Below are positions 31,908-33,415 of a DNA stretch of 64,000 bases, one piece after another. The DNA comes from Candidatus Poribacteria bacterium. Its GTDB lineage: Bacteria > Poribacteria > WGA-4E > WGA-3G. Below the pieces are notes generated by a model. The model saw only the letters and a list, made by a program, of their open reading frames with translations, was not told the DNA's origin and ran no database searches. How positions within the stretch are numbered: the first letter of the stretch is position 1; each line of letters begins with the position of its first letter. The stretch lies in NCBI GenBank assembly GCA_028820845.1, contig JAPPII010000022.1, positions 62,001 to 126,000 on the forward strand, given 5' to 3'. A program made the translations under genes and the position numbers.

Positions 31908-32276
31908 ATGCGTAACACAATTGTTTGGATCGTTGTTTTAGGGGTTATTTTTCTTGTAGGTATCGGGATGATTTACGCGTTACGCGTGCCGCGCGTCGCA
32001 CCGAAAACCTATCCAGCGGATAAGGGACCTAACTTTATTGATGTTAGCAGCTATTCCCCTAAGATGCAAGGGTCTTATGAGCTCTTTACCCGTAAATGTA
32101 GTCGATGCCATACCGTTGCACGCCCGATTAATTCTACCTTCACATCGGAAGAATGGCGAGAGTATGTCTATAAAATGATGAGAAAACCGGGATCCGGGCT
32201 TACGCCGAAAACCGCTGATGAGATCATTGAATTCCTCACTTACGATTCGCAGCACAGAGAGAAAACAACAGAATGA
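31908..32276 (+). CDS. Membrane-anchored monohaem cytochrome c
   Basis: A 122-residue protein. An N-terminal helix (VWIVVLGVIFLVGIGMIYAL) anchors it in the membrane with the haem domain outside. CSRCHTV near residue 64 is the CxxCH haem site, and MMRKPG or a nearby Met may be the axial ligand. It would shuttle electrons in the periplasm. Its TGA stop overlaps the ATG of the redoxin (ATGA), so the two are translated together and may work in one redox pathway. Confidence 0.88.
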   Translation: MRNTIVWIVVLGVIFLVGIGMIYALRVPRVAPKTYPADKGPNFIDVSSYSPKMQGSYELFTRKCSRCHTVARPINSTFTSEEWREYVYKMMRKPGSGLTPKTADEIIEFLTYDSQHREKTTE

Positions 32277-33415
32277 TTACTGCAAGATGGAATCACAAAG
32301 TGCCCCATACGCTAAAGTTTTTGATCTTCACAGCCTTGTTCTGTGTAATAGGTTTGCAAATAGGAGATGCCCAAGAGGATAACATGAAGCGTGTTGATTT
32401 TCAGATTTCAATAGATGCCCAGCCCGTCGTGTTTACCGCGCCACCTATCTTAAAAGATGGGGTCTGGTTGGTACCTTTAGAGAATTTCGCGGAACGACTC
32501 GGATTAAAAGTGGAATATCCACAAGGCGAAAAGATGGCGGTTCTCTGTCGAGAAACGGAATCGGAACTCTGTGTACCCCTCCGATTTCAGGATAGCAAAG
32601 ACGGTGTTGTGGACATTATTAATGGTGTCGTTTATGTCCGACCTGAAAGCGTCACAGAGCCTTTCGGATTTGAAATTTATAGGGCACCATCAAACAGATT
32701 GGAGGTTATTCAACCTATGCATCTTGCTCCCGAATTTACGCTTCCCGATCTGCGGGATACCCAAAGACATTTACGAGATTTTCGAGGGAAAAAGACGCTC
32801 CTCTACGTGTGGGGGTCTTGGTGAGGGTGTCGTGAACAACTGCCGGGCTGGCAGCAATTTTATAACAAATACCGAGAGAAATTAAACCTCGTCTCTATTG
32901 CCCTCGATGCACAAGGTGCTTCGGTCGTCCGCCCTTGGCATGATGCTGCGAACGCCGATTTCGTCACACTCGTTGATACACAAAATATCTTCGGCACCCG
33001 TTACAACCTCAAAGCTATCCCCTACGGTGTCCTGATTGATGAGGCGGGTCGTATGGTTAAAGCACCTTTCAGCATCAATGTTGCCGATAAAGAGACGCTT
33101 ATGATGTTGGAAAAATGGCTCTCAGATCCTGACTATAATGCGGTGCTGCTTCGCGATATAAAACGCTCAAATGAACCAGTTGCCCAAGCTCTTACTGAAG
33201 CGATGGCCCGTTTTCAACTCGGTCTCATCTTGCTGGAGAGCGGTAAAAAACAGGAAGCGATGGCTGAATGGCGAAAAGCACTTGCATTGGATCCAGAAAA
33301 CTGGATTATCCATAAGCAAATTTGGGCAGTTGAGCATCCAGACAAATTCTATAATGGAGATGTTGATTACGGATGGCAGAAAACACAGTTGGAATCAGAG
33401 AAAAGTGAACAGTAG
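32273..33415 (+). CDS. Thioredoxin-like redoxin, candidate selenoprotein (UGA read as Sec)
   Basis: One frame of 381 codons is open from ATG 32273 to TAG 33413-33415 except for a TGA at codon 184. The residues around it read VWGSW-U-GCREQLPG, which aligns with the W-C-x-x-C-R-E-x-L-P active site of TlpA-type redoxins. The frame continues with IALDAQGAS, VTLVDTQNIFG and AIPYGVLIDEAGRM, the rest of the redoxin fold. A CTGCC-GGGCT-GGCAG hairpin starts 16 bases after the TGA, as expected for a bacterial SECIS. Residues 1-33 form a signal peptide, about 40-140 resemble a copper-amine-oxidase N-terminal stalk, and the C-terminal 80 have a TPR-like motif. The gene is coupled to a cytochrome c. Sec would be at 184 with Cys186. 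Confidence 0.85.
32840..32854 (+). promoter_or_regulatory. bSECIS-like hairpin downstream of the UGA
   Basis: CTGCC (32840-32844), loop GGGCT, GGCAG (32850-32854). The loop begins 20 bases after the TGA (32822-32824), within the 16-37 base range known for bacterial SECIS elements, and has G at the first loop positions. It is needed to direct SelB/tRNA-Sec to the UGA. Confidence 0.65.

Follow-up and report, generated by a model that had tools for sequence, protein, structure and literature searches.

Does the in-frame TGA in a redoxin gene of this Poribacterial genome end translation or encode selenocysteine (Sec), and what would the product do? The gene lies at 32273..33415 of the window (the whole stretch of 64,000 nucleotides that was analysed; all features located below are on the + strand), and re-reading the sequence bore out the claim of the first-pass annotation that an open frame of 381 codons, from ATG at 32273 to TAG at 33415, is broken only by the TGA at 32822..32824. 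Reading through the UGA gives a protein of 380 residues with a putative anchor, an N-terminal domain, a U-x-C redoxin domain and a TPR tail. The TGA is codon 184 and takes position one of a U-G-C active site (...YVWGSW-U-GCREQLPGWQ), in which Cys186 (32828..32830), the second of the U-x-C pair, is invariant. The annotation was also correct in setting this U-x-C against the TlpA active site, W-C-x-x-C-R as in ResA; relatives with U-x-x-C exist as well. A mechanical ORF listing cuts the frame at the TGA into a 183-aa ORF and a downstream 120-aa ORF, and since plain ORF calling cuts the gene in this way, the family is probably under-annotated.

SelB delivers Sec-tRNA-Sec to such UGA codons. The Sec genes, whose presence the first-pass annotation had proposed to check, were all found in the window's own genome: selA (593 bits), selB (351 bits), selD (363 bits, with an in-frame TGA of its own) and tRNA-Sec (78.1 bits, cut-off 47), the last about 40 bases from selB on the same contig. 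Among the gene-bearing genomes from the pattern scan described below, selA was detected in 37 of 40, and one of the three without it (L132, G113:C369, Latescibacterota) carries tRNA-Sec at a distance of about 1 kb from the gene; in Paenisporosarcina (L076, G085:C279), selA adjoins the UGC selenoprotein gene. Absence of the gene marks Sec loss only in part: it fits G051 and G055, which have neither selA nor any homologue, but not G008, G017 and others, in which Sec genes are kept and the homologue is absent. As some genomes with Sec genes do without a homologue, the gene is dispensable.

With the window protein as query (full or near-full matches), we found an in-frame TGA at the position of codon 184 in 33 of the 36 genomes of the genus, its own included, with an extra TAA in the G002 homologue; the three remaining genomes contain no full homologue. 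The same TGA occurs in homologues from other genera, other families and another class of Poribacteria, and every full-length homologue found in the genus and phylum keeps it, with the motif W-[AG]-S-W-U-[GA]-C-R in those read. An alignment for U or C at codon 184 had been suggested in the first-pass annotation; TGA stands there throughout, and no homologue ends at it or restarts after it, the outcomes that had been named as counting against Sec.

To look further afield, GTDB genomes were scanned with a DNA pattern in which the first active-site codon was TGN, with 3 to 6 bases to the next Cys. TGA and the U-x-C spacing were found in 80 of 80 loci among the matches listed, which came from Acidobacteria, Acidimicrobiia, Bacilli, Chloroflexota, Planctomycetes, Latescibacterota, Gemmatimonadetes, Gammaproteobacteria, Alphaproteobacteria, Rokubacteria, Armatimonadetes, KSB1 and Poribacteria; the pattern required a downstream L-P-G-W, so that the scan is no census and is uninformative on the constancy of that peptide. 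Profile searches, which were free of this requirement, covered 239 genomes in all, 40 of them scan carriers and 199 from the order of Bacillus pinisoli. In the 40 carriers, all matches of at least 154 bits have the TGA and the best match without an internal stop reaches 113 bits; in the 199 genomes, the TGA is present in 18 of 18 matches of at least 218 bits, a few of which have further stops, and the best match without an internal stop reaches 118 bits. In the 239 genomes, nothing but TGA forms rises above the background set by ordinary ResA/TlpA proteins, and no cysteine orthologue was found in these profile searches or among the matches listed from the GTDB scan. Pairwise comparison of the window gene with ten relatives from the genus gave dN/dS values of 0.07–0.11 after the TGA, compared with 0.15–0.43 before it. 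Selection downstream of the TGA is strongly purifying, and this region is therefore translated.

The hairpin CTGCC-GGGCT-GGCAG that the first-pass annotation had placed 16 bases past the TGA is present at 32840..32854 (CUGCC-GGGCU-GGCAG in the RNA, coding for Leu-Pro-Gly-Trp-Gln). Its first base is the 16th after the TGA and its loop begins after 20 bases, in keeping with the bacterial SECIS geometry of a 3–9 nt loop with G in the first two bases, 16–37 nt from the UGA, on an upper stem of 4–16 bp. The minimum free energy of 32829..32866 is -8.2 kcal/mol (criterion: at most -7.5), and stability relative to composition is unremarkable (z -0.3 to -1.1); because minimum free energy alone fails to single out the hairpin, we used covariation as the test. 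Counted from the base after the UGA, positions 16–30 read CUGCC-NGGNU-GGCAG. The outer pair 16–30, made by the first base of the Leu codon and the third of the Gln codon (both synonymous), is C-G in 89 of 109 distinct sequences, U-A in 16, U-G in 3 and C-A in 1, and the wobble bases of Pro and Gly at positions 21 and 24 are Watson-Crick partners in 89 of the 109, against 32 expected by shuffling. By background-corrected mutual information, these are the top two pairs of the 60-base region. With one sequence per 70% identity cluster, 21–24 is Watson-Crick in 48 of 52 (shuffles: mean 20.6, maximum 32) and pairing at 16–30 is possible in 52 of 52. Among 53 tip pairs drawn from a tree, double changes preserve pairing at the two hairpin pairs in 7 of 7 and 12 of 14 cases, whereas pairing at control position pairs is kept in 0 to 4 of 5 to 15. 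The RNA loop bound by Moorella SelB has the same inner pair and a GU tip.

The hairpin also outlasts changes in the peptide that it encodes. It is kept in L144, where CTT..AAG replaces Gln by Lys (LPGWK), in the LPVWQ relatives L204 and L206, whose loops are GGUCU or AGUUU, and in L209 (LPVWR). Three U-x-x-C relatives (L195, L196, L205), in which W-A-S-W or F-A-S-W is followed by U-A-G-C-R, carry this hairpin shifted by one codon away from the UGA, formed by GTG..CAC and encoding VPGWH or VPVWH, so that the base pair survives a change of both amino acids. The geometry in the window agrees with the bSECIS model as outlined in PMC13188914, with a 5-bp stem, a 5-nt loop, a G in the first two loop bases and a loop 20 nt past the UGA; it differs from that model in that loop bases 1 and 4 covary in this family, so that a GG (or GU) tip and a constant U remain, and in that the hairpin is encoded by a nearly fixed peptide. 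Judged by position, shape and covariation, the hairpin at 32840..32854 is a bacterial SECIS, and its base pairs are kept in the sequences compared across about a dozen bacterial phyla.

The Sec genes, the conserved TGA, the purifying selection after it and the covarying SECIS hairpin agree with the claim of the first-pass annotation, and we consider it nearly certain that the gene encodes a selenoprotein in which UGA 32822 is decoded as Sec. Readthrough that inserts Trp, Cys or Gly and needs no Sec machinery is very improbable. It could account for Alicyclobacillus sp. ALC3 (G106/L111), which has an intact gene with selA and tRNA-Sec both under the cut-off on a chromosome titled complete, although a plasmid outside the search, machinery lost recently or a different route of decoding would each suffice to account for this genome; it is at odds with the detection of selA in nearly all gene-bearing genomes and with a SECIS-type hairpin under pairing constraint. 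The neighbouring cytochrome c gene, moreover, terminates at TGA, and TGA is therefore also an ordinary stop in this genome. A true stop, whether from a pseudogene, an assembly error or two genes as the mechanical ORF listing would have it, is the least credible reading of all, given that the same TGA recurs in dozens of independently assembled genomes of about a dozen phyla, that dN/dS after it is far under 1 and that it falls in the redoxin active site.

To place the selenoprotein among known families, we compared it with published groups. UGC-containing Prx-like selenoproteins were described from 46 sequences in Global Ocean Sampling data (Zhang and Gladyshev 2008, PMC2398784), and reviews from 2022 and 2026 (PMC9312934, PMC13188914) list UGC-containing Prx/TlpA selenoproteins. 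The window protein shares with them an AhpC-TSA/TlpA domain (pfam00578/cd02966) and Sec in a U-G-C motif, a likeness to the published tables that is one of motif and domain listings, not of sequences. It also matches NCBIfam NF041054 (ResA-like WAxxUGC motif-containing protein; WAxxUGC_long) with an E-value of 1.6e-44, but its 152.7 bits lie below the curated cut-off of 300, a score reached in 0 of 85 genomes from the phylum; L107, a member from Actinomycetota, has 488.6 bits. Where the NF041054 motif is W-A-x-x-U-G-C, the window has W-G-S-W-U-G-C, and W-A-S-W-U-G-C is found in other Poribacterial families. NF041054 models part of the UGC-containing Prx-like group, and the window gene belongs to this already known kind without being a formal member of NF041054. 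In the open-access literature, as far as its text was available, we found no description of the covarying SECIS, the second Cys pair, the cytochrome neighbour or the missing Cys form, and nothing was found there on WAxxUGC, on Poribacteria selenoproteins or on a CXC motif with selenocysteine. The same genome has a second UGA redoxin (L012, G000:C99:2112-2405, +), AhpC/TSA-like with FYRTGT-U-ANC-R (U-x-x-C), which is probably a known Prx-like selenoprotein type. A Rokubacteria contig (L203, G107:C32) carries a ResA-like frame with WATW-U-PDC-R, also U-x-x-C, and no LPGWQ-type hairpin peptide.

The protein begins with a predicted hydrophobic helix (residues 12–25, 32306..32347), a signal peptide or membrane anchor that suggests export, followed by a Pfam Cu_amine_oxidN1 match (residues 47–93, 32411..32551), the redoxin domain (AhpC-TSA/ResA-like, residues 151–261, 32723..33055) and a TPR repeat matched by Pfam (residues 312–343, 33206..33301). 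AhpC-TSA (AhpC-TSA/Redoxin) is the top Pfam match (E 5.4e-14). In the AlphaFold2 model (pLDDT 89.6, pTM 0.84), the best fold match of the redoxin domain is Bacillus subtilis ResA (Z 18.5, rmsd 1.9, 133 residues, 22% identity). The fold and the W-x-x-W-C-x-x-C-R surroundings of the active site are shared with the ResA/TlpA/CcmG thiol-disulfide oxidoreductases. Unlike them, the window protein has Sec for the first Cys and one residue fewer between the two, U-x-C in place of the C-x-x-C of ResA, as well as the extra N-terminal and TPR parts.

The family alignment reveals a second Cys pair in the N-terminal domain, C92-x7-C100-V-P (32546..32572), which is the main new functional clue. A Cys pair lies 70–115 residues before the Sec in 83 of 97 distinct family proteins, two of the 97 being cut by contig ends. 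Five short forms from Bacilli and Chloroflexota without the N-terminal pair have a C-terminal C-x4-C (CGPxGC) instead, and neither pair is present in seven proteins, some of which may be incomplete. The pair C92/C100 may thus form a further redox centre acting together with U-x-C.

Judged from sequence and predicted fold, the biochemical role would be that of a periplasmic, membrane-anchored selenol-disulfide oxidoreductase of the ResA/TlpA fold, in which Sec184 would attack the substrate and Cys186 would resolve the selenenylsulfide. With less support, C92/C100 might exchange electrons with the U-x-C centre, the C-terminal CGPxGC might take its part in the short, cytosolic-looking proteins from Bacilli and Chloroflexota, and the TPR tail might hold a partner. 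Neighbour genes vary among phyla and do not point to one role.

In the window, the gene overlaps that of a membrane-anchored monohaem cytochrome c (CSRCH; 31908..32276), whose frame stops, as the first-pass annotation had it, at the TGA of an ATGA overlap. The annotation had read this partner as suggesting a redox chain, which is possible for this clade only: the adjacency is conserved in the genus and its near relatives (in L051, G049:C193, the cytochrome c lies one gene further upstream, with a CBM9-domain gene in between), and no cytochrome gene was found beside homologues in those further families of Poribacteria and those further phyla that were examined, where the neighbours showed no shared theme or pathway. 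Given this absence in the families and phyla covered, cytochrome coupling was rejected as a family-wide feature, and since the adjacency is clade-limited and neighbours elsewhere are themeless, a redox chain with the cytochrome, or reduction of its apo-form, is a possible role in this clade at most.

Apocytochromes are clients of ResA. A ResA-like reductase that keeps the haem-binding Cys of apocytochrome c reduced, with the neighbouring cytochrome as its client, is a possible but unlikely role: ResA is the best fold match and the overlapping cytochrome c gene is found throughout the genus, but the lack of an adjacent cytochrome gene in other Poribacterial families or phyla, and the Bacilli short forms, which on inspection appear to have no signal sequence, speak against it. 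It is doubtful that the protein is a peroxiredoxin-like enzyme that reduces peroxide, in which Sec would be peroxidatic and either Cys186 or C92/C100 would supply the resolving thiols. The AhpC-TSA match and the Prx-like name given to the family in 2008 (PMC2398784) favour this reading, whereas ResA, TlpA and CcmG-type reductases outrank peroxiredoxins in the fold matches and the active site W-U-x-C-R is near the W-C-x-x-C-R of ResA/TlpA. For the selenol-disulfide oxidoreductase that we prefer, the overlapping cytochrome c of this clade could be either a client, like the apocytochromes of ResA, or a partner in electron transfer.

Cysteine homologues are said to exist for nearly all selenoproteins (PMC13188914). 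We tentatively propose, at somewhat less than even confidence, that the window gene represents a redox family of about a dozen phyla that exists in the Sec form only, with no Cys orthologue, in which the peptide that follows the active site (LPGWQ, LPVWQ, VPGWH etc.) is set by the SECIS hairpin and not by the enzyme, and in which U-x-C acts together with a second Cys pair, C-x4-7-C, of movable location. With its two pairs that covary at synonymous sites and its naturally occurring peptide variants, the hairpin offers ready material for testing the requirements of SelB, and a family so widespread, with no Cys orthologue detected, is well suited to the question of what selenium alone makes possible.
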